Of a DNA stretch of 64,000 bases, positions 1-64,000 are shown in pieces. The notes under the pieces are model-generated. The model did no database searches and was not told the origin of the DNA. It saw only the letters and a list, made by a program, of their open reading frames with translations. Both the position numbers and the translations under genes were made by a program. Positions within the stretch are counted from its first letter, which is position 1; every line of letters begins with the position of its first letter. Source of the stretch: Dillenia suffruticosa (Eukaryota; Streptophyta; Magnoliopsida; Dilleniales; Dilleniaceae); contig JAVTVX010000001.1 of assembly GCA_033439265.1 (NCBI GenBank), forward strand, positions 15,952,608-16,016,607. Reading direction: 5' to 3'.

Positions 1-801
1 AAATGTATAGATATTTATATTACAGAGGAAAGAAAATTAGAAAGGGTATGTTAGCTGTTCTTCAGTAACACCCATTTCAGAGCATAACAGCCCCATTTTA
101 GGTGCAGAAAGATGAGGTACACCTCCACATGCATTTTCTCAATTTTCTAAAGTTAACCCCTATATCCTTATCCTTAGCAAGATGCCTTCAAGGGGATACA
201 ATGGGATATCATTGTAATAAATGCACAATGTCATGATATTCAATGCAATGCAACTTCATGGAGGGCAAGAAAAATGTTGAGCACTTGAGATTTCAGCCTT
301 AAATTGGTTAACTTTTTCCATGTCCCGGCAGCTAGATTTCTATCTATGCTACATAATTAAATGAGATGCAATTACAAGGGACCCAACACAAGTGTTGGTG
401 AGTGCAATTGATTTGTTTACCTCTTCCAGCGGTAAAATGTAAAACCATAGCCATTTTCAAGGGAAATATGGATTTTCAAGGGTGCATTTCCTATATGTTA
501 TTTCAGATTTTTTTTTAGTTGAAATACATTGTCCAGTATAAAAAATTGCATGTTAAGTTTCTGAGATTATCATCCCATAACTGCATTGTTGATAAGACAA
601 TTAAACAATGTGTCTTTTGCTACCTAGCAAGATATGAAGTGACTACAATAAATCAAATAAAAAGAGATGAATTTTCAACTAGGCATGTAGATTACAGCAA
701 CAGAAGACATCAAATTTTTTTCCCAAGTGTATAATTATACCTAATGATCTTGAAACTCAAACAGGTTGATTACAACAGGCTCAGGGATAACTCATGCATA
801 C

Positions 802-3800
802 CTGAAGCACATTAAGCCAATAAGTCAAACAAACATTATTCTCTGAACTGCACAGGAAGTTCCTTGCACTCCAGGATATTGGATTCTTGGGCATCAAGCT
901 TTTGTCATGATGGAAGAAGATGTCTCTGCCAATATAGAATATAAATCATATTTGTCTTAGTATAAATAGCTTATTGAATAAAAGTGGGAACGGCAAAAGA
1001 GAGAAAAGCGCCCAGGGAAGAGAAATCGTGGCATTGACCATTTATATCCAATAAATAGCAGTGCAACACCATGCATCAGAGTGCTTTGTGGCAATTTGTA
1101 GGAGGGAATAATCAGAGGCTGAATATTGAAAACAAATTACAGTTGATGAGAGCTGCAACGCCATATGACATTGAAAATGGTACCTCTGGACATATTGGAA
1201 GGCACCTAGTATTTGCAATTCATCATATGTAGCCTTGATCCCCAACATTTTCAAAGCATCTGGTGCATGGGCAGCGATAATGCATCTGTCATAGGTTTCC
1301 TTTGAACCATCTTGACAAATTACAGTGCAACCTGCCACATTACTCCAGTTTAGATTGACACAAAGTTGGCAAAGAAAATTTCCAAATAAAGATCATATTT
1401 TGCCCAGAAGAAGCTCAATCCATCTGTTTAATATTTTAAGGTGTGATGCTTAAAAGGGAGCTGGAACAATAAAAATAAAAGCATAAATAGAATAAAAGAT
1501 TATTGAATAGGAACACTAAAGAGATATGCATAAGTGTTGCAAACTCAAGCCAATAAAGTATTACATGGTAGGTGGTTTTAAATAACAGGTTATGGAAATG
1601 AAAATAAGAAGGGACTCTGGGTTCCTACATTTAGCTCGACAAGGGATGCCATCAAACAAACCTCTGCAAGACAAGAAAGGAGTGAATCCTAAGGCCGAGT
1701 TACCAGGGTGATGTCTCATTGGATGACCTACAATCATAAGGATTTTGTCTAGTACCATTTATTGTTCCCACAAATACAAATGATAGGATTATTATTACCC
1801 TTACTCACCACAACACTTTCAACCACACATACATATATAATCTATCAAAAGTACACAACTGCTGTGCGCTATGCTGCATGTCACTACAACTGCTACTACC
1901 AACATTAGAGCCAACATTACCACATTCACTAAACGAAGTCCCACTCTACCATCTGTACCTGACAATTGCCAAACCTCCCTCACATTGATTCCTAGAAGTA
2001 TTGTTGCCACCAACACCACTACATCCACACTCAGCTCCATTTGCTATCACAAGAACTGTATTGTTGCTACAGCTTTGACTACATTCATAAGCATATCCTT
2101 ATACCACTATCTTCTTCATTTTCTTTGAAACTACTACCTAATTTTACAGCAGCCATAAAAATGTTAATGCAACAAAAGGAGGCATGACACCCCTCACCTT
2201 CAACATCTGTTGAAATAGATTCAACCTCACAACCAGTTTTTATTTGACAACCTTTGCTCCTTAGCTGTTCTTCAACCTGCTTTTCCACCATAATCAAATG
2301 CAAGCAATTTCACAAGTAAGTACTTTTCCAGGCTAACAGCAGAAAATTGCAAGTACTCCCAAAGAAAAGACAAGCACACATATCAATAAGATGATAGAAA
2401 GCACCTTATTGACAAAATCACATGCACGCTTTCCTAGACTCAGGCATTGCGAGCTATCAAAGAGCTGCAGAGTTAAAAATTTGAAATTAATACATGGCCA
2501 AGAGGGAAAGGATTAAATTTAAATACTTGCACACACTCGCGCACAAAAAGAAATGTAAGAAATCTATGTTTATGACATTAAGGAAGCAAACCTGTAGCAG
2601 GTGATGAGTATGACAATATGAAAGAACAAAAAAAGAAGAAAAGTTCAATGCAGCCTCTGAAGAGCATGACCAAATTGAAGCACATATTGGAACCTATCAC
2701 AAATTTATAAGCAAAGTTAGCAGTGTAATTATGACACAGAAAACATAAGCCAGTGAAACGGAACTAAGTCTCACCAGATAAGCCTTCTCAAATAACTCAG
2801 AATATCCTCTTTTCTTTATGAATTGCCCCAATGTCTCGTTTTGATGGATGTCTTGATTGTTTTCTAGCTCTTCTAGATACCTTCAATATACCAAACAAAA
2901 TTATTCAGTTAATCCACATTCTAGGCCTTCACCAAATAAATAATGAACAACAAAGTAACTGGAAGCTCAGGCCCATGGCTTTCCAGAACACTATAGCAAG
3001 CAACAACTGTAAAGGACCGAATTTTAGGGATATGGAAATTTGGATTTATAATTTGGTTTATAAAATATTGCAACAAATGAGTTCTAAATATTAGACAATC
3101 TTGGATACCATTTCACTGATACAACTAGAATAATCCAAGAAAATCAAAAACGAAAACATTTAGCACCTTTTTCATTATTCCCTAATATGAAATGATTTTT
3201 GACATCAAAGAACCAACTTCTCCAAAACTTTGAATTCACAGAAAAAGAGTACGTTTATTTAGATTTTCACATTTTACGCCCCATCATAAAGTGGCTTTTT
3301 AACATAAAATTTTAAAAAGGATAAACCAGACCTTCCAAGTTTCAAATTCAACTATTATGTTCCACAATATTTACCTTCTCATTTAGTTTAGGGTATGATA
3401 TGTAACTCTGATGCCCATGAATGTGCAGCAGTAAATGCGCAATGGCTAAGAAAAAACATTGCAGCTAGCAAGCACAAAATGACCAATAGACATTATTTCA
3501 TAATTTATAGATTATTTATATTTATTTGTGTGTAGATATTCTCCGAATATGTATTTGGCACACAACAATGTCTGAATCTGCTGCCTATGAGAAATTGAAT
3601 TTTTTTTTCTTGAACATGAAACCATCGAAACAATGTCAGTATACTCAAACAAATCACAACTGCCCGTTAGAAGAAATCTAACATTAAGGGAAAAATTTTC
3701 AAATTTCACCGTTTAATTTGAACCCAAAACAGGGGGAAAAAAGAAAAGAAAACCCAAATTCATAAGGTAAAGAGGAAATTGGCTCACTTGACAGCATCGT

Positions 3801-6489
3801 CCTTGAACTTGGTAATTTCGCGGAACAACTGTAAGAAATATGGGTTGATAAGGTTGGTCTTTTGAGAAAACAAGCTCCGTAAACCATTTCTAGTACCCCA
3901 TTCATACCCCCGACCTTGGTCTAGGCTGACAGAGAATGACATATCCGATGGCTCCAAATCGAACCCCAAATTGTCCAAATACTCCATTGTACTTGGCTCC
4001 GTTACCTGTGAAAATTATCAGATCATTCATCGTCATGCAAAAAACCAGAAAACCTCAGAGGTCGAGCTCGCGAACCGATTATTATTCAATTCTCAGTCTC
4101 GGTTGGGAGTGAACGGGAAAGAAAGTGACCAATTTTAACAATATATTCAAATATTGGGCCGGGCCGGGTGGGCTCGTTAGTATCCCAACCCAATCGAGTT
4201 TGCGGGCTTGGCCTGTGCGTGTTCAAATTTTTTTTTATTACACAAGAATTCACATCCTAAATCTCAGCATCGAAGAGTGCTATCGTGAACACCGATATTC
4301 CTAAGGAATGCTGCTTACCCGGTTTCCACATCGTGGCCCAATGAGAAACTTTTTTTTGGTGGGACCCACTGAGAAATTAAAATAGAAAACGATTTTGAAA
4401 CTCAAAACGGGAAGCTGAATATTTGTCCAACCTCTTTACAAATAATACCATGTGCTTAAGTGGACTTACCAAGGGATTTCATACTGGCGCCAATCCTACC
4501 CTTCTAAGAAGGCTCATGGAATAAGTCTATTTACAAATCCTTGATGGTAAATTTTCATTTCAAATAAAATATTTTAGCACTTTATGAAAGTGAATCGGTG
4601 GTCGAAGATAACACAAGAATGTTGACAGATATATAGAGAAAAATATGGATTTGGATGAATAAATAACACTAAATTCTTCCTTCTATAAATAATCTCGGAG
4701 GAAAATAATTAAAAAGAACTTATCAACTTTATCTTTTATGTCTTCATAAAAATACACGTATTCACGAAAATTTAAATATTAGAAATTAAGAAAGATACTT
4801 AAATAAGTGTTCTTTATCATTCAGGTGCCCCTACAATGACTTATATTTTTGTTTTCTCATTCACTTTATCTTAAATTTTAGATTTTATCTCTTATGTTAT
4901 ATGTTTTTGTTTTTAATTAGTTGGATTATTTTCTTTGATTGCTGTTTTTAGTATAACAGATCCTTTATCCAATCTACGAATAAGGGGGTTTATTTTAGCT
5001 TTTGAGAGACCCTCATCAAGCAGCAGAGTTCCTGTTTTGACTCAATGGCCTAATACAAAGGGAAATCATTTGAGTGTTTATCCTTTTTAATCCAAATCCA
5101 TACAACACTTCCTCGGCAAAAAAAAAAAAAAGCTGAGGTTTGTTTGTTTGTTTGTTTGTTTAGTATAATGAACAAAATGATTTTATTAATTTGGTCATTA
5201 TTATTATTATTATTATTTCATTTGTCTTTCCATCTTGCTTCCGTAATTAATGATCCCCCAAGACCCGTGGTTAACAAAAAGGGTAGTGATCCTACAATAG
5301 CAAAATTCTTTTTGCCAGAGCAATTTTTACTTAAATATCAATTTTACCCTTAATTAAATTTTTTTATTTTAATTGATTTTATTAAACCTCATTTTATATA
5401 TTAATTACTCCCCAAATTCTGTCAACTTTCTCTCTCTCATTTTCCCCACATCGCACCTTTTAACTTCCCCATCCCTTTCCCACCGACCAGTGTCCCCCCC
5501 CCTTTCCTTGCTACAATTCACTTCACTCTTTGAGACTGTCTTAAGATATTGTTTGAAGCTAATTGCAAGAAACTTTTCTTCATCCAACTCTTTGGTGATG
5601 TATTTTTTATTTTTTAACGAAGTTTTCATGTATAAGTTTTTTTTTTTGTTCTCTTTTTTTTTTTTGTTTTTAATTTCAATGAGATAATAAAGATAAAATT
5701 TGAAATTTAATTGTATAATTCATATTTTGCAAATAGACAACACGATTAATACTCGAGTGGAAGAAAATCATATGAATAGGTGGAGCGGTGATATTCAACG
5801 ACAACAACCAATTGGTCAAAAAAATATTGCTTAAATATTAGATTACAAATATGAAACACGTGAAGAAATGATGAAATGCTAGTTGTTTTCTTTGATCAAT
5901 ACGATAATCAAAATGTTTTTCATTTAAATAGTATGACATCTGTATTGTTCACGAATTAGTATCTTTTTTTATTTTATTTGTTATTTATTTAAGATGCTAT
6001 AATTTTAGTTATATAAATAATTTTTTAAATATAAATATAAAAAATTAATAATAATATATTTTTATATGAAACGATAAAATAATATATTAAAATGAAAGAA
6101 TTAATAACAAAATGGGAAGAGAAAAGAGAGAGTAATTAATTTATACTAGGTTTTAACAAAATCAATTAAAATTAAAGAATTTGATTGATTAAGGGTGAAA
6201 TTAGTCTTTGAGCAAAAATTTTTCTAGCAGAAAGAATTTTACTCAGGCAGGATCACCATCCAAACAAAAAACCAGTAATTAATTCGGTTAATAATTAATT
6301 TTTACATGAAATAATTAAAATAATGTTTTTTTAACAAAACGAAAATAAAGTGAAAAGGCGCTTTCGCACCAAAACCCGCCGCTTACCGTCGGCGCAATAC
6401 TGGTTGACTACTACTCCTACACAACATGAATGCGGCCACAGCACGACCTTTAAGCTGTTCAGAGTACGGAACTAGGATTTGACTGTAGA

Positions 6490-6536
<47 letters not shown>

Positions 6537-8472
6537 CTATATATATATAAAAATATAGCGAATATAAGATATAATTATCTAAAATGTAAAATATAAAATT
6601 AAAAATTTTGTAAACACAAATTTTTTATTTTTTAATAAAAAAGACGGAAATTTATGAAAACTGAAAATTAATAAGTAATAAAGGTTTTAAAATTTTAAAA
6701 TTGTTTTTAAAAATACAAAATGTATTTTATAATAATTAGATATTTTATTATAATTTGAATTTTAAAGATGAGAACATTGTTTGGAATATTAAGAGAAAAG
6801 AGGAAAATTTATAAATATTGTATATAATAAATATATAAATTTGTATTTATACAGACAAATTGCTAACCCTAGCAATAGTCAATATGTTATTGTAGGCACA
6901 ACAAATATATTTTTAATATTATTTCAATATATAATAAATATTATGTTATTGCAATAATAAATATTGTATAAATATTATGTTATTAAAATTATATTTTATT
7001 ATTCAAAAAATTCAATATAAAATTTAAGTATAATATTTATTTAAAATCGTCAATAATTTAGATTTAGATAAATTGGTAAATTTAACAATCATGAAATGAG
7101 AAAAGGGATTCTTAATAGAAATTAGGGATGAGCTTTGATAGAGTGAGATGGGGCTTATAAATTCTTGATGTTTTTTTCTTTAAATGCATATATAATAATT
7201 TTTTTAATTTTGATCTAAAATAATAGTAGTACTGTGCGTGCAATGCATAAAACAACAGTTGAATAAATTAATAGGAAATCAAGAGGGAAAAAAATGTTTG
7301 GAAAAGACGAAAATAGGCCCAGATAATCCGGTGATCTGATCACAAAATCTCTTCCTTCCCTTCTCCTTTTCCCTCTCCACCGCAACCAAACTCTCCCGCC
7401 TCCCTTTGTCGTTCTCTGTCTCACTTCCTTGTTCCCTTATCCTCTCGTTATCTCTCTTTTGATTGATTTTTTTTTTTTTTTGGATTTCAGTCACTTCTTT
7501 TTCATTTTTCTCGATTATTTGTATAGGATCCACCATTTTCTCCTCTTCTCTTTATCTTTTTTGATTAATTTTCATTCTCTTCCCCATCAAATTCTCTGGT
7601 CTTATCGATATACAAACTGATTTTTTTTTAAAATTTTTTTTCTTTAAAATAAAAAACGAGGAAAAGATTCTTCAAAATAAGGGAGAGAGAGAGAGAGAAT
7701 CTAGAAGAAAAGAAAGAGAACGAACAGAAATGACGCTTTCACATCAACTAGGGAGAGACAAGAAACATAAATAGAAAAACAGTTAAAACGATGCTTTCAT
7801 TCACATCGATGAACATTAAAAAGTCACTAATCAACTGATGAATAGAGAAGTTCGAATCGTTTTTCTATTGGTAATAGAAATTAGCTTCCGTCTTGCGTCA
7901 CTTAAAAAAGTTCCACCTTTGAATTTTTTGTCAATCATGGATATCATATTTTTCACCTTTCATCCCACGAGAGGTCAAAAAGGCACGTGCGGTTAACTGG
8001 GGAAAAAAAATACTACAATGCTATTCATACGAGAGGATTTAAATAATTTTTTATTTAATTTTTAATGATTTTCTTTATCAAACACAATAAAAATATGGAG
8101 TCATGTGAATAAAAATTTCTATAAAAATATTTTAATTATCAATATATTGATAATTTCTAGAATTAAAAAATTTACTTTATTTTAATTGAATCTAACTCAA
8201 AGAAATCCGTAAATTTTTCCTACGGGAGCGAAATATAATATCCGGAGAATAAGATAGAGGGAAAAAGGTTTATAATTTTTTTTTAAAAAAAATAAATATT
8301 ATTTTAAAAAATATGATAAGTTTAGATAATTGTAACCAATATTTTTATGACTTTCAAATATATTAATAAACTTTTTTATCATGAAAAGTATACATGTTCA
8401 ATTGTATCAACGATATCTGGGTTTACTGGATGCTCGAATAGAGTTAGTCAGATTTTTGGATATCGATAATAA

Positions 8473-8515
<43 letters not shown>

Positions 8516-8807
8516 CACATTCAATTGTTATCCCCTCCTCGAATCTCCACCACCTTATCTATCCTCAATTTTTTTGAACAGAGTTTTGAACTTTCTCAAA
8601 ACGAAGATAACGTACGAAAGAAATAAAGCTTACTGGATTGAAAAGCAGGGAACTGAGGTCCAAATCAATGCCATGGAAGGTGGCAGTCTTGGAATGAGCT
8701 CCCAGATTGTCTTCCTTCTCATACAGCACCACTTCTACACCGGCTTTCACGAGCTCGCTCGCTGCCACAAGCCCACTGATCCCTCCTCCGATCACTGCCA
8801 CCCTCAT
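802..8807 (-). CDS. Cyclopropane-fatty-acyl-phospholipid synthase (plant CFAS/CPS type), copy 1, exons 1-8 (3' part off window)
   Basis: This is the FAD-domain half of a plant cyclopropane synthase, the family that adds a methylene from SAM across the double bond of oleoyl-phospholipid. Exons, 5' to 3' on the minus strand: 8634-8807, 3788-4005, 2775-2880, 2592-2693, 2405-2464, 2198-2276, 1184-1331, 802-925. All junctions are GT-AG and all phases join, giving residues 1-337 with no stop. Translation starts at 8807, the first in-frame ATG. The dinucleotide-binding motif GGGISG is at residues 7-12, followed by the VVLYEKE strand. Odd points: the usual GGH after this strand is GAH, and a Trp kept in copies 2 and 3 is Cys in exon 5. 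Intron 1 is 4.6 kb against 1.5 kb in copy 2 because of inserted DNA. Exon 9 would lie just beyond the left edge, so integrity of the methyltransferase half is unknown. Confidence 0.92.
5281..6261. mobile_element. Mutator-like MITE (non-autonomous, long TIRs) in intron 1 of CFAS copy 1
   Basis: A 981-bp AT-rich element with long terminal inverted repeats of roughly 130-150 bp. The left end begins GGGTAGTGATCCTAC; the right end, read on the minus strand, begins GGATGGTGATCCTGC. Both run on through matching AAAATTCTTT and TTTTAATTGATTTT stretches. It is flanked by a 9-bp direct repeat with one mismatch, TAACAAAAA (5272-5280) and AAACAAAAA (6262-6270), the target duplication length of Mutator-type elements. 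No transposase is encoded. The matching intron of copy 2 lacks it. Confidence 0.75.
6494..6534. repeat. (AT)n microsatellite
   Basis: An uninterrupted run of AT dinucleotides in intron 1 of CFAS copy 1. Confidence 0.9.
8476..8511. repeat. (TA)n microsatellite
   Basis: A TA dinucleotide run in intron 1 of CFAS copy 1, about 120 bases from exon 1. The copy 2 intron lacks it. Confidence 0.9.
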
Positions 8808-10080
8808 TTTCTTTTCTCCTGTTTGAAATATATGAAAGCTGAACGTCACAATAGGACATATGCACTAGACCATTAGTTCCAACTTTTTATTAGGAAAGGT
8901 ACGTAGTTGTGTTAGTTATGACAGCGGTTTTGTATTAGGAGAGAGAGGGACAGAATACCAGATATTGGGTGAAGTGAGAGAGAATAGACGATCACCAAGT
9001 CCCACTGTTCGGACGAGAGAGAGTGAAGCAACAACTAGGTTGTTATAGGACCGAGGAGTACCGGGGCAAAGTTGTAGCACATCTAATATAACATATCTTA
9101 GGGACACGTACGTATGCAAGGGTCATCTTCAAACATCCGCCATTTTTGCTGTCTTTTCAGTCAAATGGTACATTTGGTTCAGAGTAGGCGAACTCTGACT
9201 GTGACTGTGACCACTAATGACGTGACTGCTACGGAGTTTTCATTAACAAAAGTATGCACTATAAGAAATTTAGATAGCTCTTTCCATACTTGAAAATCTC
9301 TCCAAATGCATTGAATAATGGTAGTCAGTCACAATCTCGTTCCCGATTTGTTTGGATTTCTTCATCAGTTAATGCGGATGGGACAAGAAAGAGGCTGCTA
9401 GGCATGGAGTGAGAAATTCAAAAGCCAAGGAGATCCAAGTCATAATTCGAAAATACTCACCATACTTTGTCAACCATCTTATTCCCGTCGATCACTTATT
9501 TTAGTAAATTAAATGATGAGGACGCTACAGCTGCTGGTTTTGAAATTTTTGTCCAAATAAGTGTAAGAAATATGGAGTAAAATCCTCCTCCTATGGACCC
9601 GAGGCTGCTTGGCATGGAGTGAGAAATTCCAAAGCCAAGGTGATCAGGTCATACTTGGAAAATACTCACTACTCTTTCCCCCAGTCTTCCTTGTAAATTC
9701 AATGTTGAAGACTCTAAGCCGCTAGTTTTGACGTTTTTGCAAATAAATAGAAGAAATATGGAGAAAAATCCCCGCCCCCCCCCGCCCATTGGACGCGTTC
9801 ACTCGTGCAAGCAAGTCAATGACACTAACACTTTTGTTCATGCGGTGTACGCAGATTACGTCCGACGCTAAGATCATCTATGATAGGAATAGAAAGGGTT
9901 TAAAAGAAATAATCTCTTAGAATATGTGTGGAAGGAGAGAAATTGGGTGAAAATTACTCTCTAAAATATTTTCCTCCTTTAAGGATTTAGCATGTACCAA
10001 CTTTTCACTCCTAAATTTTTATAGGAAGTAACATTTACTCTCGCAGTAGGGTTGACCCTAAAGTTGGGGTTGGGTAACAC
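8808..10080 (-). promoter_or_regulatory. 5' leader and promoter region of CFAS copy 1, shared with copy 2
   Basis: The region aligns with 37545-38640 upstream of copy 2. It holds the leader, the weak TATA-like site (9041-9047) and more distal sequence. A segment of roughly 200 bp beginning GAGGCTGCT(A/T)GGCATGG occurs twice (about 9390 and 9600), while copy 2 has it once (about 38151). No gene is seen. Confidence 0.5.
9041..9047 (-). promoter_or_regulatory. Weakened TATA-like site upstream of CFAS copy 1
   Basis: This is the counterpart of the copy 2 TATA box. The minus strand reads CCTATAACAAC, with a C breaking the A run. The surrounding CT-rich leader is conserved with copy 2, so this is probably the same promoter with a poorer core. 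Confidence 0.35.
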
Positions 10081-10990
10081 GAGGGGAAAATACAAAAATA
10101 AAAAATTCTCTCAAAATTGATTATTTTATATAGAAAAATTCTAAATAAATTTATTTGTTTAGAAGTCGAAAATTAATATACTTAGTTTATAGAGAGAAAA
10201 ATTAATTTAAATTTTTTTAAGAGAGAAAACTCAAAACAAATATATTTAGAAAAATAAAATATGAACTAAATTAATTTTCTAGAGAGAGAGAATTAATATG
10301 TTTAGTTAGGAAAAAAAACTAGTATATTTAGAGGGACAAAATTTAAGAAAAATTATTTTTTAGTGAGAACTAAAATTAATGTTCTCTCTTTTAGAGAGAT
10401 AAAAAATAAATTTGGTATTTTAAGAGAGAGAAAACTTAAAATCAGTGTGTTTAGATAGAGACAAAGTGAATTAAGTTGATTTTTTAGAAAGTTTTTTATA
10501 GAGAAAACATAAAACAATGTGTTTAAAGAGGGAAAAAGATATAATTGTTTTAGAGACAAAATTTATGTACTATAAAAACTAAGTTTCATATTTTTAGAAA
10601 GAAAAAACTTAAAATCAATAGGATTAAAGAGCAAAGTGTGAATTAATTTTATTTTTTGGGAGAGAAAATTAATGAATTGTGTTAAGGAAGAAAAATAAAT
10701 TTAGTATTCTTAGAGAGAAAAAAAAAACTTAAAATCAATTTGTTTAAAAAGAGAAAATATGAATTAAATTGATTTTTTAAGAAAAAATTAATGCGCATAG
10801 TTTTGGATACAGAAAAACTAAATTTCATTTTAAAAAAATAAGAAAACTTAAAATCAATGTGATTGGAGAGAAAAGATGTGAATTAAAGTGATCTTTTTAG
10901 AAAGAGAAAATTAATTTTTTTATTTTAGAGGAAAAAAACCAAATTTGATATTTTTATAGAGAAATCTTAAAATCCATATATTTAGAAAAT
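10080..10990. repeat. Degenerate A-rich, AGAGAGAAAA-type repeats upstream of CFAS copy 1
   Basis: A chain of short diverged units of the form TTTTTAGAGAGAGAAAATTAA, alternating with AACTTAAAATCAAT and TGAATTAAATTGATTTT modules. The same block lies upstream of copy 2 (38650-39600), so it belonged to the duplicated unit. No coding potential. Confidence 0.7.
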
Positions 10991-16571: not shown

Positions 16572-17069
16572 TATTGGCAACTCTGATTCAAATGAATGAG
16601 TTTTAGGAGTAATAAGGCATATCCCACATTTTATGGAGAAATAAGGGTGATTATGCTTATTCAAATATCTATTCAAGGAATATGGCTGGACTCTGATTCA
16701 AATGAATAAGTTTTAGGAGTAATAAGACATATCCCACATTTTATGGAGAAATAAGGGTGATTATACTCATTCAAATATCTATTCAAGGAATATGGCTCGT
16801 GTCAAGGATTCTTAAAGAGTAATAACTTCTCCTACATATGGTAGTCTATTTGATAAAAGAAATATCAATTATTTACTGCGTTTAATATTTTCTTTCTCTT
16901 GTTGATTACTAGTTTTAAGAACCTAATTTAGGAATATTTGTTATTTCCTTCAACTTAGTTATGTGTATGAACTGTATATAATTATCCATCTCTTGTAGTC
17001 AATATAGTGTGGAATCATTCAATAAAAAATTCATCAAGAAAAATTCTTTTTGAACTCTGTTTTTCCTCT
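16572..17069 (+). repeat. 5' LTR of the Copia element, with internal 110-bp tandem duplication
   Basis: The LTR is 498 bp; the 3' LTR is 380 bp. The difference is mostly a second copy of a 110-bp segment (16581-16690 and 16691-16800, both starting CTCTGATTCAAATGAAT). Confidence 0.88.
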
Positions 17070-17107
17070 TGGTATCAGAACAGGAACGATTTTCTCTTCT
17101 TCCTGTC

Positions 17108-21745: not shown

Positions 21746-21750
21746 ACTAC

Positions 21751-48010: not shown

Positions 48011-48249
48011 ATTTTATTCTTATAAAATTTTAAATTGAATATTCATATTTATAAGTTTTAGTTTTGTTTTATTTTTTAATATTTTTATATTTTATATTAC
48101 GATTAACATTTTATTTGAAACTCCAATTTTTTAAACTTTTAGTTAGATAAAAATTAAAACTACTAGAGTAAAAATTTTAGATAGACAATAATTCTTTAAA
48201 AGATCAAAATTCTAATTTAAAAACGGCATAGTTAACTATAGGCAAAACT

Positions 48250-50870: not shown

Positions 50871-51818
50871 ACTCCATGCTTAAATAATAATTTAGTTTTG
50901 GTTTATTATTTAATATTATCACATTCTATTTCAATTTAATATTTTAATCAAATCTCAAATATCTAAATATACATATTCAAATATATTATATGTGGTTATG
51001 TCAAACGCAGAATCACCTTCTGGCTCTCCAACATGCAGAATCACGTTGTGGATCTACGAAACGTAGAATTTTGTTGTCATCCTGCATAGCGTAGAACTAT
51101 TTTAAAAAATTAAAACCAATAAAAAATTGAAAAAAAATGAAAAACATATTTAATTCTGTTTTAAATATTTTTTTTGAGTTAATATATAACTTTTAATATA
51201 TATTACATACACTACGCACACTATATTTTAATATATACATTTAAATCCAAACATATTTAAATAAATAACTTAAATCTAAATATATTTAAATATAATATAC
51301 ATTTTTTTTCCATTCTAATGTATTTTTTTTTAATATAATATATTTAATGTTAAATGAATATATTTAAAATATATTTCTCTCGGTCATGTTTTTTTGGGTT
51401 TCATTTTTTTGGTATTATAAAAAAAAATTTTACGTATCACAAAACTGAAATTAATACGAATTTCATTAAATCACACTGGGCAACTTCCCTCATTTTGCAG
51501 CTAAAATCAAAACTTTACACCGCGTATCATGCAGTGTACACCTCCTAGTTGATCAAAATAGAAGCCTTCTTTCAATTGCAAAGTGAGGACTTGACCAAAT
51601 TACTAAACTCTCTTAACCAACATTTCGAATTCGAGTATTAAAAGTTAAAAAATAAGCACCAAGATAAACAACCCCTAAATTAAGTCTCATAACTGTTCGA
51701 TGAGTCAAATTTCCAAATACCGATGATTAAATGCAAAAAAAAAAAAAATGAAAACTTCTTGCTGGTCTGTGGTGTTTTTTTTTTTAAATACTTTTTACAT
51801 CTCCAAATAATGATGAAA
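50871..51818. other. AT-rich spacer with a last GCAGAA cluster
   Basis: GCAGAAT/GTAGAAC-like motifs persist to about 51100. Beyond that the DNA is AT-rich with no recognised feature up to the start of the copy 3 3'-flank homology. Confidence 0.5.
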
Positions 51819-52698
51819 GCTACTTGTCCAATACAAAACTCCTGAAATGTAACTACATTTTTCCATTTTATCCTACTCAAAACATTTCTTAGCGTGCATC
51901 AAACAGGCAAAAAAAAAAGCACTTTATAGACAACAAATGAATGAAAATTTATAAAAGAAGAAAGCAGAAGAAATATTAAAAAATAAAAAAGGGTGTCACA
52001 TATCAACTATAGAAATGCAAGAATCCATTTTAAAATTTGTAAGTTTTCCATGAAAAAAAAGTCTGATATAATTGTTCAGAAAAAAATGAAATGTACTAAG
52101 AAGAGTAGAGAACCAAATGAAGGCATGGATGAATATATGTAGCCTTTATTTAATTATTAAAAATTGAATAATTAAATATGAATATATAAAAAGAATTGAA
52201 TTGTATGAATAAAAAACACAACATTTTATTTGCAAGAATCTCAAAACCTAATGGGCACCCTAATATTCTCTCAAGATTTATAGGAAAATGAAATTTCATT
52301 TCGTAGGCAATGAGAAAAGCAGTTGAATTAACAAAACAAACAAATATAAAAGGATCATATACAACTTGCGAGGCATATCAATGGAAAAAGAAATTGCATA
52401 AGGTAGGGTTCCCCTACAAACCATTAGATTTTTAATATAATATATATTTTTCGACAATAATGCCATTTATTTAACACGACACGAGTTTTTTTTGATACAT
52501 TTCATACCATAAAAATGCATGAAAAATATTATTTGCAGAATAAGAGTGAGTCACATAAATCATCCAAATCTATCTTATTTATTATCAAAGCTAATGGACC
52601 TTTCCTCTGTTGGGTCTTGTTGTCCAAATGGATGCAAGATGAGTGAGAGCATCGAAGAAGCAACTCAGTTCCAAGCTGAGATGGCATTCCAAAGTAGT
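51819..52698. other. 3' flank of CFAS copy 3
   Basis: It aligns with 16535-16571 joined to 21751-22619 behind copy 2 and thus preserves the site before the Copia insertion (ACTAC at 51852-51856). It holds the candidate poly(A) signal at 52578-52583. Confidence 0.65.
52578..52583 (-). terminator. Candidate polyadenylation signal (AATAAA) of CFAS copy 3
   Basis: AATAAA on the minus strand, about 115 bases past the stop codon at 52699, aligned with the one behind copy 2. Confidence 0.4.
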
Positions 52699-55600
52699 TT
52701 ATTTCATCCCTTGTTTTTCATCTGGAAGATGAGTTGAATAAGCTGATGGGAAACCCTCGTATGGATCATCAAAAGTTGTATTATTGCCAGGACGTGAAAA
52801 TACAATCTGCATTTCAAGAAATTATCATTTCATTTTCCGTGAATTCTATAAAACTGAACATGGGGGCAGAGAGAAAGCATAGTTTCAGTGTGCAAGCAAA
52901 CTTGAGCATTCTTAATTGCATAAACTTGCCTTAATCTTATGATCAAGCTGAGCATGGATTGATAGGTCACATAATCCTCTTCTATACTGCTCAACAAGGA
53001 ACTAAAAAATACGTGTTGGATGGTACTAGAATGCTACAATTTTGTGTATTTGTACAACATTCCAGTAATAATTTCTTTTAACTAGTGTCACCTTGTTCAG
53101 CTAGTAAAAATTGTTGATTTGATATCAACAGAAAGGACCAAATCCCCTGGTACTAGGGTTGGGGGTGTGTATAGGTATGAGAAGAGACACTTCCATTGTA
53201 TAACTCACCATTGAACTGAACCGCAATGAATTGTAAGTCAATTTTGTCATTTTTTATGAGAGAGAAGAATGGAACCCTTAGAAAATAAGAAATTATCAAC
53301 TCAACATTTTAGTTGTGACTAGAACGTGAGAGAACTGGTTTTTGGCTTTTTTTTTCTTTTTTTAATAATTGGATCAGCCTTATTGGTCTCAAATTTTTTT
53401 TTTTTGGGTTGGACCCGGAAGTTGAATTCTCTTAAGAAATGCGGCCGCTGCCACGGGGCTTGAGCTTGTCCTAAGCGCAGCCTTTGGATTGAACCAAGGC
53501 CAGATTTTATTCCTCGGTATCTCTGATAGGCCTGACTGAGCTGATTCTCAGGTGTAGTTGTCAAAGTGAACCTTTCTTGTTTATTCCAGTATTGGTGGAC
53601 ATAGTATGATCCATAACACATATAATGCTCAAGCAGGAAATGGTCAAGCAGCAATGGCGGGCTGTAGAACAGGAAGGTACCTGATAATCTCCTAGAGTAC
53701 GTGTTTTGAAACCAGCAGCACAGTAATCAAAATAATACTCCCATGTCCGGATAAACTTTTCATCAAATCCCAGTGCGAGAACTTTGCTGCAAGAGTGACA
53801 ACTTAATTCAGATATCATTAAAATCTAAACCTAAACTGTTTTTTTTTTATTTACTGCTGACAACTATGACCGTTTAGATGATCAATATAGAGCAGCAATC
53901 AGTAACAGCAACAACATACAAGTCAAAATTTTGAAATTGGTTTAAATATATAGGAGCAGCAGGCTCCTCTAGAAAAAATGTTGGAGCACCCCATTTCAAG
54001 CAAAAGCAGAACATGCTACCTCTGGTTTTCAAGAAAGTTTTTCCTCCAACATCTCAGTGTCTGGTAGTAATGTATTCCTATGTTTTCAACATGCTCCACA
54101 CTGAAGGCAAGAAATCATCAAATTATTTATGAAAAGAAATGGACAATTGAAGTCTCATGTAGTTATGAATCCTGGCACAAAAGAGAACAGCATGTACCAA
54201 AGTCTGGAAGCAGATGCCATAGAAAATGTAATTTTACATAATGAAGGGACGCATCCACCAGGGAAAATGTATTGCTTGATAAATCCTCCCCCTCTCCGGT
54301 ATTCATCATATAAATGATCAGGAAACGATATGAACTGGAAATGGAATAGAAGCAATTAGATCCAATGTCAAGAATGATTGAATATAAAGATGAGAAATTT
54401 AGAACTTGAGAATTTTCATAATCCAAAAATACCTTTTGAAGCATTTGGTCTGAAATAATTCCTGGAATATAATCTTCTCTAGAAATGATGGCAAATTCAT
54501 TCACAAAAATCCAAAATTTTGGCCACAGATTTCTTAAGTGAAGGTATATCATACATTAGAAAATTATTTTTATAATAGTAGACAACACAAACATGTAAGT
54601 CAACTTTTGAATCCCATTTGAAAAATAAACTCGAATTGGAAATCTATTGGACAAAATTACAGTATGGTGCTAAGTTAGCTAATATTAATCTGCCACTTCC
54701 AGATCAAAAATCAAAGAATAATGTTATCTTGCCCTTACACCAAAGCTCAATTTATATAGAACCAACATCTTGTTTACTATCATTCATAAATTGAAGGAAG
54801 CTACATGATGCAGAAAATAAAGATACTATGCTAAGAACCAAAACTGCAACCAATTAATTAATTCATAAGATTCATTACCTGTAGGACAAGAAGGCCGTCT
54901 TTTGCCAATAATGATTCACAGAGACTGAAAAACTCCTCTATGTATTCATGTCCAACATGTTCAATCATCCCGCTGTCAGAGATCATCCATTAGATCACTG
55001 TATTGAAACAATATAATAACTTGTAGTTTTATCTACAAAAGTTGTGATGAACTCACCAAGATATGATTCTATCATACTTGCAAGTATCAGGTAATTGACG
55101 ATAGTCACAAAGAAGAAGTTTTATGTAGTCCTGACATGCAACCAAAATAGCTTAGTTCTGTCAGATGAATAGTTGCAGTGCTGTACATGCTTTTCTAGAT
55201 GGCAGTGTAATAGTAAGGCAGCAGATCAAATCCAAACACTATTACAGATCTTATATATTCTTAAATATACATACATACATAGGTATTGTTAAATCAAATG
55301 TTGTGTTTCTGAGCAAGATGAATTAGAATGAAATCAATCAAGTTGAAAGTCTACTTCTTTAGGAGACATATTTCAGTCACAAAGAGCTACAAGCTACTTT
55401 CCTTTTCAATTTGCCCAAGTGGAATACTTTCATCTCTCACTCACACATGACTTCGACAAACAGTTGTCAATGGGATTGATCTGCTTCATAAGAAAAATCC
55501 CTTGAAAGAAAATACAGGGGATTGAGACTGCGTAAGAGTACAAGAAATAAATAACATTTTTTTCCCTTAAGTTACAAGATTATTTTCTTGTTTTAAATTA

Positions 55601-58189
55601 CACTAAAAAGAAACTCCAGGATTGCTGAATAACAAAAACCGCAGCAATCTCTTACCAGGAGGAAAGAGTCCAGCTAACAAATGAGAGAACACAAGGGAGC
55701 TGGAAGTAGGGATGGTTACAAGGAGGGTTAAACAGGTGCTGAACTTGTTATCCATGAACAGAACACCAAGTTTAAGTGGAACTTAACGCTTGAACATCCA
55801 AAAGTAAGAGTGGCTCTAATTAGATCGTTTGCCAAACTCAGTATGATAGATTCATTTTTCTCATTCTTTAATGTAGGCAAAACATTGTCGATCTATATGT
55901 AATCTTCAAAAGTGCCGACATGCTTGTTCAATTCTATCTTTTTAATATTGGTCTATTATGACATCCAAACAAATATTATGTACCTGAAGGCCAGCCTCTT
56001 TCACTCTCTTTTCTGCAAATTTAAATTGTTGCTCTGACAATGTGATGCCCGTGTACTTGCATCCAGTTTGCTTGACAACCTCAATAGCTAAACTTCCCCA
56101 TCCACACCCAATATCAAGAATTTCATGCCTTTGCTCAATCCTTGCCTATATTGGAACAAATTCATTTAAACCAGAAATTAAAAAAAAAAAGGAAATTAAA
56201 AGAACATCTGACAACTCTCATACAAAATATTAAAAACATGCCTTCTCAATCAAAGCAGTAATTTTTCTCAGTTGCGCAGCTTTTAGATCTTCATCCTCCC
56301 TCTGACACATAATAAAACAAATCATTGATGGATCCGAGATACATGGAAAGAAGACTTCAAGTAAAAATGCATCATATTCCTTACCTTAAAAACTGCACAT
56401 GAATATGTCATTGTTTCGTCCAAGAAAGTGGAAAAGAGATCATTACTCTGGAAACAGCAAAACAAACACAAGTTATTGTATGCACTTTATGTGCTGTCTT
56501 TCTGGTTTCTTTTTTTTTTTTTTATAAAGAGGGAGGAGGCAGTCAGGGAGGGAGTCCCCCCATTGCTCAACCCAATAGGTTGGTGGTACCTTTTGTGTTC
56601 CCGCTGTTTGTGATAGTATTGCATGCAAAAAAAAAAAAAAAAAAAAAAAAAGCCTATGGCTTCATAAATGCTGGCACTTTCATCCAGACTAATTTGTGAA
56701 AACTCATGGATGGCATTCTATTGGAAATTGGATTCAAAAAGGTGACTCAAACATGCATGATGGCTCGCTCCCACATACATTAGGCAACTACAAAAATAGC
56801 TTTTGGAAGTTAAATCTACAAATTCTAGTCTAAGAAATATGGGATGGGAAAATCAGCCAAAGTAAGAGTTTAATATCCCATACCAGATCATAATGGCGAG
56901 AGATGTTCCTGCGAGCTTGTGTTACAGTATTTTGATTCAAAACATGCTGAATGACATTTCTTGCTAATGCTAATCCAGCTGTAAATCGCAACAAAGTCCA
57001 CCAACCTCTAAATTCAACAAAGGGTGGAAATTTAAGAACTAAAGTTCAGAATATGCCCATAAAAAATATCCTATACTACCTGCTTTATAGACTACAATGT
57101 ACCTTTTATTGTTGGACCTTGAAACGGAGGAATTTGGATCACTGTTGACAATGAAAATCTGTGCCATAAAATTCAGCAAGGGAAACACTTAAACAATGCA
57201 AATATTCGAGGAATTAGCAGTTTTGAGCTTTAGTCAGTATTAACCATGAAAAGATTAAGAAGACCCTCATCCTTATTGACAAAAGAAATATCCCCATGGA
57301 TATAAGCATCTGCAAGACCCAACTCGGCCTCTGTTGCAACCTGTCAAAGAATCTCGGAGTTTAGGAGACAAACAAAAATTTTAACCTCCAATTATTGCAG
57401 GGCCTGTTCTACATTGCTAAAATGTTCCTTGGTATAAAAGTTTTAGAGTTAATACCTTCCAATAGAACTGAGGATTGTGAACCCTAAAAGCAGATTTCAG
57501 ATAAGATTTCTTACTGGTACCCCCAAAGGTGAACACTGCACCTCCTTCCTCATATATGCTGAGACACCAGAAGAAACATGCCAAGTAATTTCCACATATG
57601 ACTTCAGACTAAATTCCTATACACAAATTAATCCTGTATATTGCCACAAGTAAATAATGATATACACAAGAATGTGTGCAGTTGCATTCATGCACATTCG
57701 CCAGTCAACATAAAGCAACAAAGTGGTATAAAATACGAAGAAGGAAATATAGTCAAAATAGCTCAGAAAGACTGCAATGGCAGCTGCTGCCATTATGATG
57801 GCCTAATGACTTGTGGATTAATATTATAGTTAACGCATCGACAAGTCTCTGCTGATCCTTTCCAATGTCATCACTCAGATTGTTATTTCCTTCTATGATG
57901 TAAAAAAGGGCCTTTAAGTATGATGCTTGTGATTAAGTGGCATGTATATACCATAGTGATTGCACCCAACTCAACAAAGCTACAGACCGCACCCAGAGCT
58001 CAAATTTTAGCAACACAAGGACAATGAATGAAGTTAAGTCTAAAAGTTAAACTTCAGAAGTAGGAATTGAAACATCCATTCTATTAGGCATGGTCAAGAT
58101 AGCTTTCACATCCAATTCCTTCCCAGAAGAAAGAATTCTAATCTTCACCGATTAGGTGAAAATTAAGTTCTTTGGTGAAAATAGAAATG

Positions 58190-58192
<3 letters not shown>

Positions 58193-58234
<42 letters not shown>
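58193..58234. repeat. (GA)n microsatellite in CFAS copy 3 intron 11
   Basis: A 42-base GA run aligned with the shorter run at 28205-28226. Confidence 0.9.
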
Positions 58235-58237
<3 letters not shown>

Positions 58238-59019
58238 CTATCAAGACACGGTGAAAATGGATAACCAAAGTAAACATTGAGGATAATATAATGGGGTAGA
58301 GAAATTACAGCAACAAGCAACATCACTAGGAAACTTCAATTTTCAGGATAAAGAGCACAATTTATGTGCACTTTCATGAAAACTTACATGAGGTATCCAG
58401 TCGAGATATAGCTCTTAAAAAATCTGATAACTAAAAGTCGTGCCCATGTTTCAAACAGCGGAGCTTCCATATGTTTAGGAATTTTCTGAACTGTAGAATT
58501 CGTTCCAAGTATGCCATTGGCAGCAACTATGCCTGCCTGCAAAGAATTAGGTATACATTATTACCTGCAGGATACATATTACTTACAGTAAAGGGCTTCC
58601 TTCTTATATGCATAACAATATTAATCCTCTAAACGTAACAATTAACCTATCACAAATTTTTGTTTCCCCATTTTTTTGGCCGAGAAGGAAGGGTGAGAAG
58701 GGCAACTAGAGTAGCTACCCACTCCCTTCGGCATCACCATAAAGGTACCCACCCAGTGTGGGATATTCATTTTGAGTCATAACTCTTATTCAATGTGCGA
58801 GGTCATCACCCCACCTAAGTGTTAGGTTTCTAGTATTTGTCCACAAGGTAATTGGTTTGCAGTGACCTTGCAACCTTGAATTTTCAAACTCGTAAAACTG
58901 TGACTTGACATTGTTGATCATTAGGCTACTACCTCACTGGTGATCCTACCACAAGTTACAGCTTGTTCATCTACTTATGACAATAAGTTAAAAGCGTGAG
59001 CTCTAATAGTTACCTTGAA

Positions 59020-59022
59020 TCA
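59020..59022 (-). other. Premature TGA codon in exon 10 of CFAS copy 3
   Basis: The minus-strand codon is TGA. The aligned codon of copy 2 (29016-29014) is CGA. Frame is fixed by exon 9 (181 nt, ending one base into a codon) and exon 10 (29 nt), both the same length in the two copies. The change is a C-to-T at a CpG, the common deamination type. Confidence 0.88.
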
Positions 59023-62000
59023 ATCCTCCTGAAACCCGTGGCCTACAAGAAATGCAATTAAAGTTTTCAACCAATTTCATCATGTAAGAAACAGATTACG
59101 GCAACCAAAGCTCAGTAAACTCTAAGCTAGTGCAATTTGGCACTTAAAGAAAGGAACCATTAGTACCCTACATATGCACCGAACAATGCATAAGCCCAAT
59201 GTAAAGCATTTTTGTTGAAACCAGATAAATGGACAATTTTCTGCCTTCTTCACAAAAGACTCAAGAATTTTGTGGGTATTCTGTCTGGAAGAATACAAAA
59301 TTCTGAAAAAAAGAGAGAAATGCATAACCTTCCATTACATTACCAGTGGACCTCATGTCTAGTTTGCTCAAATCAGATTTTACCCCCCCATATCAAAGGA
59401 GGATGAGAGAATAATAATATCCACTATGGCATGCCAAGTCAATAAAGTACTGATTTCTCCAAAGAACTCATTAATAAACTTCGCAGCATGCAGTGGCTAT
59501 GTCAAATCTTAAGATAAGATGATTTCCTCCAGGTCAAAGCAAAAAAAAAAATGCCGTTAACGAACTATTCCTAAATCACTAAGTAAACAAACTGGAATAG
59601 AATTCGACTGGATATATCAAACTGTCTCTGCAGGAGAGACCAGGAGAGTAATTGTTCAATGGACAAACAATACTAAAAGGCAAAGTTTTCACCACTTAAA
59701 GTCAAGATGCAAAGTTAACAATGAAACAAATTTTAAGATTACGCTGTTGTGTGAGGGGGTGGTTCCAAAATTGTGTGACCATAAAATTTGAACTAAATTA
59801 AAAGGAACATTTACAATACCGCAATAAGACTAGTAACCATTGATAATAGAATCGTTGTTCCATGCATGTTATGAGTAGTTTCATTATAGAAAGCATATTG
59901 TGGGCTTGAAATAGGGCAAAACAGTAATCACAGTAATCATTAAAAACATCATTGTTGAGGTCAATCCTCAAGCACAACTCCTGTGATGAACTACATAATT
60001 AAATGGGTCAAGCCTTGATTCCCAATTATTATAAGCAGGTCTGAATCTAAAAATTCTATAACAGGGAAAGGGGGGATTGAACCTAGCAAAGCAATGCTTG
60101 CACATAAGTGAATTTAGGTAAGCCGGAAAATTTACCCTGGTATGCTCCACAAAACCATATTCCTCTCTTCCCCTGAATACTATCAATTCTAGATGATGCT
60201 TTGGCTGCAGCAACTGATGGGATAGGCCACCTTGTTGACCATTTAAACAAGGTGTTTTCAGGGGTGTATGCTGGATCAAGAGTCACAAGAAATGGAAGAG
60301 TTGTATCCCCAACGTTCTGCATGTGTTGATATGACACGGAATGAGAAGAATATTGAGTTCAAAGGAGTGTTACTGAATTGGGTTTCTTCATTCATGGCAG
60401 AACTAGACCAGCTTTGGATATACAAGCATTTCACACCTTTGGACAAGGAATTTTATTTTAATATTGCTTCTTGTTCAAATAGGTTCACTTCACATGGATG
60501 TCCAATATAAATTATTTCAAAAGAAGTAAACACTAATAGAACTTCTTATGGTTGTTGTATACAGCATATATCGCATATGGTAAGACCATTATTATTATTG
60601 TCTTTTTTTAAAAAAAAGTGTATTATAACCTTCAAAAGATGTTAAGGGAGGAGAAAATAGAGGGGAAATACAAAAATTTATCATGTAATACACGTATTTC
60701 CACGTGAAATGCATAGATATTTATATCACAGAGGAAAGAAAATTAGATAGGGTATGTTAGCTGTTCTTCAGTAACACCCATTTTGAGAGCATAATAGCCC
60801 CTTTTAGGTGCAGAAACATGAGGTACACCTCCACACGCATTTTTTCAATTTTCTAAAATTAACCCCCTATATCCTTATCCTTAGCAAGATTCCTTCAAGG
60901 GGATACAATGGGATATCATTGTAAGAAATATAAAAAGACATGATATTCAACGCAATGCAACTTCATGGAGGGCAAAGAAAAATGTTGAGCACTTGAGATT
61001 TCAGCCTTCAATTGGTTAACTTTACCACTACCAGGGTGAAATGTAAAACCATAGCCATTTTCAAGGGAAATATGGATTTTCAAGGATGCATTTCCTATAT
61101 GTTATTTCAGATTTTTTTTTTTTTTTAGTTGAAATACATTGTCCAGTATAAAAAATTGCATGTTAAGTTTCTGAGATTATCATTACACAACTGCTTCGTC
61201 GATAAGACAATTAAACAATTTGTGCCTATTGCTACCCAGAAAGATATGAAGTGACTACAATAAATCGAATAAAAAGAGATGAATTTTCAACTATGCATGT
61301 AGATTACAGCAACAGAAGACATCAAATTTTTTTCTCAAGTGTATAATTATACCCAACGATCTTGAAACTCAAACAGGTTGATTACAACAGGCTCAGGGAT
61401 AACTCATGCATACCTGAAGCACATTAAGCCAATAAGTCAAACAAACTTTATTCTCTGAACTGCACAGGAAGTTCCTTGCACTCCAGGACATTGGACTCTT
61501 GGGCATCAAGCTTTTGTCATGATGGAAGAAGATGTCTCTGCCAATATAGAATATAAATCATATTTGTCTTAGTGTAAATAGCTTATGAATAAAAGTGGGA
61601 AGGGCAAAAGATAGAAAAGTGCCCAGGGAAGAGAAATCATGGCATTGACCATTTATATCCAATAAATAGCAGTGCAACACCATGCATCAGAATGCTTTGT
61701 GGCAATTTGTTGGAAGGAATAATCAGAGGCTGAATATTGAAAACAAATTACAGTTGATGAGAGCTGCAACACCATATGACATTGAAAATGGTACCTCTGG
61801 ACATATTGGAAGGCACCTAGTATTTGCAGTTCATCATATGTAGCCTTGTTCCCCAACATTTTCAAAGCATCGGGTGCATGGGCAGCAATAATGCATCTGT
61901 CGTAGGTTTCCTTTGAACCATCTTGACAAATTACAGTGCAACCTGCCACATTACTCCAGTTTAGATTGACACAAAGTTGGCAAAGAAAATTTCCAAATCA

Positions 62001-64000
62001 AGATCATATTTGGCCCAGAAGAAGCTCAATCCATCTGTTTAATATTTTAAGGTGTGATGCTTAAAAAGGGGCTGGAAAATAAAAATTAGAGCATAAATAG
62101 AATAAAAGATTATTGAATAGGAACACTAAAGAGATACGCATACGTGTTGCAAACTCAAGCCAATAAAGTATTACATAGTAGGTGGTTTTAAATAACAGGT
62201 TATGGAAATGAAAATAAGAAGGGACTCTGGGTTCCTACATTTAGCTTGACAAAGGATGATATCAAACAAACCTCTGCAAGACAAGAAAGGAGTGAATCCG
62301 AAGGCTGAGTTACCAAGGTGATGTCTCATTGGATGACCTACACATGTACCATTTATTGTTCCGACAAATACAAATAATAGGATTATTATTACCCTTACTC
62401 ACCACAACATTTTTAACCACACGCATGGAACCCACCACCATATTATTACAAATATCATCTATCACAAGTACACAACTGCTGTGTGCTATGCTGCATGTCA
62501 CTACAACTGCTACTACCAATATTAGAGCCACCATTAGCACATTCACTAAATGAAGTTCAACTCTACCATCTGTACCTGACAATTACCAAACCTCCCTCAC
62601 ATTGATTCCTAGAAGTATTGCTGCCACCGACACCACTACATCCACACTCTGCTCCATTTGTTATCACAAGAACTGTATTGTTGCTACAGCTTTGACCACA
62701 TTCATAAGTATATCATTATACCACTATCTTCTTCATTTTCTTTGAAACTACTACCTAATTTTAGAGCAGCCCTAAAAATGTTAATGCAACAAAAGGAGGC
62801 ATGACACCCCTCACCTTCAACATCTGTTGAAATAGATTCAACCTCACAACCAGTTTTTGTTTGACAACCTTTGCTCCTTAGCTGGTCTTCAACCTGCGTT
62901 TCCACGATAATCAAATGAAAGCAATTTCACAAGTAAGTACTTTTGCAGGCTAACAGCAGAAAAATTGCAAGTACTCCCAAAGAAAAGGCAAGCATACATA
63001 TCAATAAGATGATAGAAAGCACCTTATCGACAAAGTCACGTGCACGCTGTCCTAGACTCAGCCATTGTGAGCTATCAAAGAGCTGCAGAATTAAAAATTT
63101 GAAATTAATACATGGCCAAGAGGGAAAAGGATTAAATTTTAAACACTTACACACACTCGCACACAAAAAGAGATGCAAGAAATCTATGTTTATGAAATTA
63201 AGGAAGCAAACCTGTAGCAGGTGATGAGTATGACAATATGAAAGAACAAAAAAAGAAGAAAAGTTCAATGCAGCCTCTGAAGAGCATGACCAAATTGAAG
63301 CACATATTGGAACCTATCACAAATTTATAAGCAAAGTTAGCAGTGAAATTATGACATAGAAACCATAAGCCAGTGAAACAGAACTAGGCCTCACCAGATA
63401 AGTCTTCTCAAATAACTCAGAATATCCTCTTTTCTTTATGAATTGCCCCAGTGTCTCGTTTTGATCGATGTCTTGATTGTTTTCTAGCTCTTCTAGATAC
63501 CTTGAATATACCAAACAAATTATTCAGTTAATCCACATTCTAGGCCTTCACCAAATAAATAATGAACAACCAAGTAACTGGAAGCTGAGGCCCATGTTGC
63601 ATTTCTTTCCAGAACACTATAGCAAGCAACAACTCTAAAGGACCAAATTTTTGGGATATGGAAATTTGGATTTATAATATGGTTTATAAAATATTGCAAC
63701 AAATGAGTTCTAAATATTAGACAATCTTGGATTCCATTTCACTGATACAACTAGAATAATCCAAGAAAATAAAAAAGGAAAACATTTAGCACCTTTTTCA
63801 TTATTCCCTAATATGAAATGATTTTTGACATCAAAGAACCAACTTCTCCAAATTTGAATTCTTAGAGAAAGAGTATGTTTATTTAGATTTTCATATTTTA
63901 CACCCCATCATAAAGGGGCTTTTTAACATAAAATTTTAAATAGGATAAACCAGACCTTTCAAGTTTCAAAATCAACTATTATGTTCCACAATAGGTACCT

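Follow-up and report, generated by a model that had tools for sequence, protein, structure and literature searches.

The 64,000-nucleotide stretch of the Dillenia suffruticosa genome analysed here (the window; contig JAVTVX010000001.1, called C1 below, positions 15952608-16016607 of a 596 Mb assembly in 37 contigs) holds three members of a young, five-unit tandem array of plant cyclopropane synthase-type genes. The array is mostly held by purifying selection, as measured by the ratio of nonsynonymous to synonymous substitution rates (Ka/Ks). The genes encode the plant fusion of a UfaD-like flavin adenine dinucleotide (FAD) oxidoreductase with a UfaM/CFAS-like fatty-acyl methyltransferase that depends on S-adenosylmethionine (SAM). 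The reading favoured here, with a probability of about one half, is that they are amplified fatty-acyl methyltransferases whose oxidase half is altered and perhaps non-catalytic. Taken together, Ka/Ks and the alignments show an oxidase domain that is retained, with changes in parts of its conserved core.

A young array within a larger gene cluster

With a provisional plant cyclopropane synthase sequence as the tblastn bait, the same exon series was matched three times on the minus strand of the window. Self-comparison gives three head-to-tail blocks. The first runs from position 1 to about 10.9 kb, the second from 21746 to about 39.6 kb and the third from 51852 to 64000. The gene bodies are 87-94% identical, the 5' ends 73-79% (copy 1 vs copy 2). 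In the spliced model, copy 2 consists of 24 exons (window 37544-22620, minus strand) separated by GT-AG introns throughout, with an uninterrupted reading frame of 877 amino acids plus stop. Copy 1 has exons 1-8 inside the window (8807-802) and exons 9-24 to the left of its edge, and the whole gene is open. Copy 3 has exons 3-24 inside (63500-52699) and exons 1-2 to the right of the edge. With the flanking contig included, all 24 exons are equal in length, without indels, among the three copies. The lesion of copy 3 is a single TGA at codon 405 (window 59022-59020); the codon is CGA in copies 1, 2 and 5 and CAA in copy 4. The TGA falls within exon 10, the skipping of which would shift the frame because the exon is 29 nt long. 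In addition, the donor of exon 17 in this copy is GC in place of GT (window 56240-56241).

These models agree with much of a preliminary description of the window, which had reported three minus-strand genes with the same exon sizes, copy 2 intact, copy 1 cut by the window edge and copy 3 interrupted. The last holds if the lesion was meant, as copy 3 is also cut by the edge. The gene family named there is supported as well. The same description spoke of a tandem triplication of the whole locus; whole-locus duplication with shared flanks is indeed seen, but the three genes are members of a five-unit young array inside an eight-member cluster. A CMAS family search of the genome found CMAS-domain exons to the left and right of the window as well, and gene modelling over C1 15830001-16086500 places five young genes, two older paralogues (cA and cB) and one fragment within about 227 kb, all on the minus strand (Table 1). 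The family searches score the best candidates only, and members lacking a CMAS or oxidase exon that passes the cut-off may escape this count.

The young genes are 14.5-25 kb long and, with at least three homologous units head to tail, constitute a tandem gene array. Copies 1, 2 and 5 are intact, copy 3 has its one stop, and copy 4 is a pseudogene. Synonymous divergence (Ks) is 0.075-0.124 among the young copies and 1.01-1.14 between them and cA, cB or d2, a canonical paralogue on another contig. The genes cA, cB and d2 also have 24 exons, of the same lengths as in the young copies save the last (72 vs 108 nt), although these models were guided by the exon lengths of copies 1, 2 and 5 modulo 3, and a deviating structure could be missed. 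The longer exon 24 of the young copies (window 22727-22620 in copy 2, 52806-52699 in copy 3) adds a 12-residue C-terminal extension, which sets them apart from d2, cA and cB.

Methyltransferase and oxidase halves of the young genes

The N-terminal half of copy 2 matches Pfam Amino_oxidase (2.5e-22, residues 10-273) and the C-terminal half Pfam CMAS (8.6e-81, residues 571-839). The best-matching solved relatives are the amine oxidase LkcE for the former and bacterial cyclopropane synthases for the latter. An oxidase-like N-terminal and a CMAS C-terminal domain in one frame characterise the plant CPS/UFAMD fusion family. Both are found in copy 2, and the same exon chain in copies 1, 3 and 5; the 24-exon structure is also common to other members of the family in this genome.

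Bacterial relatives were sought by a pattern search based on the aligned oxidase halves of d2, cA and copy 5. It returned 28 loci, of which four (L035-L038) match over at least 389 residues and were used, the other 24 being left out for their short matches. The three complete loci (L035, L037 and L038) all show one row on a single strand, with the oxidase gene first, then a DUF1365 gene and then one of CMAS type, close together or overlapping; the fourth, L036, stops inside the next gene. This row is the one known from furan fatty acid synthesis (ufaD-ufaO-ufaM), and the bacterial oxidases thus have the neighbours of the UfaD-UfaM type. In that pathway UfaM methylates the acyl chain, UfaD desaturates it and UfaO (DUF1365) brings in oxygen (PMC7380195). 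The three loci are relatives of the characterised ufa genes and not those genes themselves; as an observation in their own right, they are candidates for furan fatty acid synthesis. In the plant genome, a UfaO-type DUF1365 partner is present at the level of exon matches, four in number: two on C21, one on C29 with two TGA codons inside, and one on C31.

Across d2, cA, cB and the four bacterial relatives, 67 columns of the oxidase half are invariant. Ten of these are changed in all of copies 1, 2, 3 and 5 (copy 4 is not in the alignment): G52S, F53S, V55L, N195T, S214A, Y217F, L300F, W317R, N351D and H402Q. The conserved oxidase core expected of the UfaD-UfaM type thus appears altered in these four copies. 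Among 75 columns invariant in d2 and the four bacteria, the young copies change 13-15, cA 5 and cB 7; among 104 invariant in the four bacteria alone, differences number 40-42 in the young copies, 29 in d2, 30 in cA and 33 in cB; and among 155 common to d2 and L038 alone, the young copies differ at 34, vs 28 and 26 for cA and cB. The Pfam oxidase model scores 27.6-36.9 bits on exon 1 of copies 1, 2, 4 and 5 (copy 3 is not listed) and 40.8-46.6 bits on that of cA, cB and d2. Ka/Ks of the oxidase half is 0.24-0.34 in five young pairs, with none of 1000 bootstraps reaching 1.

For the methyltransferase half, the bicarbonate-site positions were taken as C139, E239, H266, I268 and Y317 in E. coli numbering (PMC3132707). 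By alignment, all five young copies have Cys, Glu, Gln and Tyr at the E. coli active-site positions. The I268 position is Ile in copies 3 and 5, Val in copies 1, 2 and 4, and Thr in cA and cB. Gln at the H266 position is found in 8/8 plant copies, as are the conserved Cys, Glu and Tyr. The strict bicarbonate site of CFAS is thereby incomplete, which does not exclude activity, as the active cotton CPS1 also has Gln. The three bacterial CMAS genes adjoining an oxidase gene have Gln there as well, and Ala or Ser at the C139 position. At 128 positions shared by d2 and L038, the young copies are changed at 15, 16, 16 and 21, vs 17 in each of cA and cB. Ka/Ks of this half is clearly below 1 in four of five young pairs.

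In the mechanism that would follow from the favoured reading, the methyltransferase half would still use SAM to add a methylene or methyl group to acyl chains that are unsaturated. The oxidase half would no longer act as the ancestral desaturase and could be a structural or regulatory partner, or carry out a changed chemistry; this is the least certain step. With a non-desaturating oxidase half, methylated or cyclopropane acyl chains would be expected as products, not the conjugated diene leading to furan fatty acids. Results from cotton agree with this in part, as an enzyme without its oxidase half retains about 30% activity, and GhCPS3, with Cys at the C139 position like the eight plant copies, gave no detectable cyclopropane fatty acid (PMC3132707). 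Taken further, the young array may represent a natural separation of the two plant UfaD-UfaM halves, in which the oxidase domain of amplified, selected genes is conserved as a body but without the ancestral desaturase chemistry, and a furan-type bifunctional enzyme has become a methyltransferase, or an enzyme that forms cyclopropanes, partnered by a pseudo-oxidase. In this full form the proposal is rather improbable.

Several results weigh against an altered, possibly non-catalytic oxidase half in selected methyltransferases. The excess of changes over cA and cB is modest (one-sided Fisher p 0.014-0.11 on the 75-column count), and neither columns nor copies are independent. All five young copies have an intact GxGxxG motif, and the strong purifying selection seen for the oxidase half might just as well reflect retained catalysis of something. 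In a tree including two provisional sequences, the ratio of oxidase to methyltransferase stem lengths is about the same for the young copies (0.29/0.16) as for cA/cB (0.14/0.07), and therefore there is no oxidase-specific acceleration overall; faster evolution of the oxidase half alone in the young copies was rejected on this ground. On the methyltransferase side, Ka/Ks between copies 1 and 2 is not clearly below 1 (0.58, 95% 0.27-1.51).

One alternative is that a functional plant cyclopropane synthase has simply been expanded in dosage, all intact copies making dihydrosterculate-type fatty acids and the oxidase half merely stabilising the enzyme. In its favour, most catalytic positions are retained in the young copies. 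Against it, copy 2 scores below the cut-offs of both best-matching NCBIfam cyclopropane synthase equivalogs (253 of 400 bits for NF008686, 281 of 600 for NF053839), although these models are bacterial and a weak test: d2 scores 253 and 290 bits, and the bacterial CMAS of L037, at 264 and 234, is also below. The bacterial relatives, moreover, adjoin DUF1365 genes. Cys at the C139 position of the young copies is a weak marker, because the Sterculia sequence, in the provisional form used here, also has Cys there. In cotton this residue accompanies the inactive GhCPS3, the active GhCPS1 and GhCPS2 having Ser; these two are members of the same family that do make cyclopropane fatty acids, and the activity left after removal of the oxidase half fits a stabilising role (PMC3132707). 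On balance a dosage expansion is possible but doubtful. The preliminary description had named the genes cyclopropane synthases. As a statement of homology the label is sound. The cyclopropane or cyclopropene product it stated does not stand in that form, in view of the NCBIfam scores, the DUF1365 neighbours and the inactivity of GhCPS3, and is at present putative.

Alternatively, the young genes may encode bifunctional furan fatty acid enzymes of the UFAMD type, with methylation and desaturation both active and a separate DUF1365 protein closing the furan ring. The gene neighbourhood of the bacterial relatives points this way, as do the DUF1365 matches on three contigs of this genome and the proposal, by similarity, of the Arabidopsis gene AT3G23510 as AtUFAMD1, located on lipid droplets (PMC10940516). 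However, the ten UfaD-like residues that are invariant in the comparison set are altered in the young copies, which makes the explanation unlikely for them. It suits d2 better, though d2 retains these residues by construction of the comparison.

Finally, the array could consist of recent duplicates without function that are decaying, several being dead already. Copy 4 is broken by three indels and by stops at codons 32 and 433, copy 3 has one stop, and both the fragment and the broken d1 exist. Nevertheless, copies 1, 2 and 5 hold 24 exons without stop or indel, and among these three the pairwise Ka/Ks is 0.33-0.40, with 0/1000 bootstraps at or above 1. General decay is thus very unlikely.

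Unit boundaries, insertions and neighbouring frames

Beyond the stop codon, homology is continuous for about 0.9 kb between copies 3 and 5 and patchy further out between copies 1 and 4 and copies 1 and 5. The outer limits of the units are not sharp because this homology runs on, in patches for some pairs. Window position 21746 was considered as a common unit boundary and rejected: it is merely where a Copia-type long terminal repeat (LTR) retrotransposon cuts unit 2, and homology continues patchily to its left in some pairs. The LTRs of this element are 93-96% identical over two aligned pieces.

Over the ten pairs of young copies, substitutions amount to 4.7-10.1% in introns 2-22. Values for the 3' flank are 8.7-16.0%, and those for the first part of intron 1 plus whatever aligns of the 5' flank (often under half of it) are 9.9-17.8%. 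Where they can be aligned, the flanks and intron 1 differ between copies about 1.5 to 3 times as much as introns 2-22 do. Gene bodies that are more alike than their flanks fit gene conversion, stronger constraint, or both. The array would have grown by unequal crossing-over between misaligned units. An assembly artefact, with allelic copies laid end to end, could also yield five similar units, but nothing was found in its favour, and it is extremely improbable given these differences among the units (4.7-10.1% in introns 2-22, 8.7-17.8% in alignable flank and intron 1) and their different insertions and spacers, such as the Copia element in unit 2 and a LINE-type frame within copy 1 (intron 23).

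The LINE-type (long interspersed nuclear element) frame encodes 1005 amino acids with endonuclease and reverse transcriptase domains and lies on the opposite strand (C1 15941663-15944677), the exons of copy 1 staying open. Intron 1 of copy 1 contains a stretch (window 4184-7458) with no match in copy 2 at the sizes listed. Intron 6 of copy 2 contains a stretch of about 770 bases (window 33232-33998) that includes tandem repeats of 20-48 bp and has no counterpart in copies 1, 3, 4 and 5. Between units 2 and 3 is an AT-rich spacer (window 40935-50886; GC about 17-29% in 2-kb steps) built of direct repeats, the copies of which are about 1.3-2.1 kb apart and 76-91% alike.

Table 1. Positions of duplication units, genes and other features in the window and on contigs C1 and C11.
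Feature	Sequence	Position	Strand	Remark
Duplication unit 1, right part	window	1-10988		Self-comparison
Duplication unit 2	window	21746-39616		Gene plus shared flanks of about 0.9 kb (3') and about 2 kb (5'); outer limits not sharp
Duplication unit 3, left part	window	51852-64000		Self-comparison
Copia-type LTR retrotransposon	window	16572-21745	+	In 3' flank of unit 2; ACCAC and ACTAC on its two sides
Codons 52-53 of copy 1, Ser-Ser	window	8649-8654	-	Gly-Phe in d2, cA, cB and four bacteria
Codons 52-53 of copy 2, Ser-Ser	window	37386-37391	-	Gly-Phe in d2, cA, cB and four bacteria
c1 (copy 1)	C1	15961414-15940340	-	Young unit, 24 exons open
c2 (copy 2)	C1	15990151-15975227	-	Young unit, 24 exons open
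c3 (copy 3)	C1	16019771-16005306	-	Young unit, one TGA
c4 (copy 4)	C1	16040702-16024804	-	Young unit, pseudogene (two stops, three indels)
c5 (copy 5)	C1	16072326-16047232	-	Young unit, 24 exons open
cA	C1	15865183-15845431	-	Older paralogue, 24 open exons, left of young units
cB	C1	15884931-15869446	-	Older paralogue, 24 open exons, left of young units
C-terminal fragment	C1	near 15.889-15.891 Mb	-	Broken; cluster member left of young units
d2	C11	15189069-15181789		Paralogue elsewhere in genome; canonical gene
d1	C11	about 15198-15205 kb		Broken duplicate adjoining d2; in-frame stop; no first exon found in the stretch examined

CMAS matches on C8, C17, C20 and C37 were considered as further family members and rejected, being weak alignments that cover the methyltransferase half only in part (the best, against the bait, has E 4e-8). 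Stretches from C9 and C15 gave no match to copy 2 or the bait at E 1e-3; a second C15 match and a C10 match lay outside this comparison. As to a wider biosynthetic cluster, no obvious lipid partner was seen among six of the 56 open frames of at least 130 amino acids in the region, a survey in which intron-rich genes would be missed. The domains in those six frames are RRM, Clp protease, DUF659, reverse transcriptase/endonuclease, LTP/seed-storage and gag/integrase. Among eight frames examined in the window, the Copia frame alone has a match.

Comparison with known systems

The cotton enzymes GhCPS1-3 likewise have the oxidase and CMAS domains fused in one protein, of 865-873 amino acids, and GhCPS1 and GhCPS3 share with the young copies the Gln at the position of E. 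coli His266. GhCPS1 and GhCPS2 produced cyclopropane fatty acid, whereas none was detectable with GhCPS3 in yeast, tobacco cells or Arabidopsis seeds (PMC3132707). The young copies differ from the plant cyclopropane synthases of cotton and Sterculia by Ser-Ser for Gly-Phe in the oxidase core, and from GhCPS1 and GhCPS2 by the Cys discussed above.

In Arabidopsis, five genes of the family fall in one clade (PMC3132707). AtUFAMD1 (AT3G23510), also listed as UFAM1/UFAD1 (PMC12712439), has the same fusion and the same proposed UfaD-UfaM type. It is listed as a recent duplicate of AT3G23530 with different expression (PMC3756979), and the two presumably lie close together, to judge from their locus numbers. 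This pair differs from the five young units, two older genes and fragment found here, with their altered oxidase core, sequence having been compared with a provisional Arabidopsis protein only. In tomato, the CFAPS1 locus (Solyc09g090500/090510) also has putative cyclopropane synthase genes together, in one metabolic quantitative trait locus (mQTL), and knockout of CFAPS1 alters galactolipids and volatiles (PMC12781095). It differs in having two genes, and is likened here by its description, not by sequence. Both halves of the plant protein are homologous to neighbouring genes of the bacterial ufaD-ufaO-ufaM set, from which the plant differs by the fusion and by DUF1365 matches that lie on other contigs.

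A five-unit young array of this family was not found in the excerpts of the literature searched, which describe small duplicate sets in Arabidopsis (PMC3756979) and tomato (PMC12781095). The duplication mechanism is ordinary; the altered oxidase core in genes kept by selection is the added interest. The intact copies with an altered core and the conserved paralogue d2 form matched pairs in the same genome, which bear on whether the oxidase half is catalytic or supportive, and on whether the product class is cyclopropane, methyl-branched or furan acyl chains. The array is also a clear example of a lipid-modifying gene that has recently multiplied locally.

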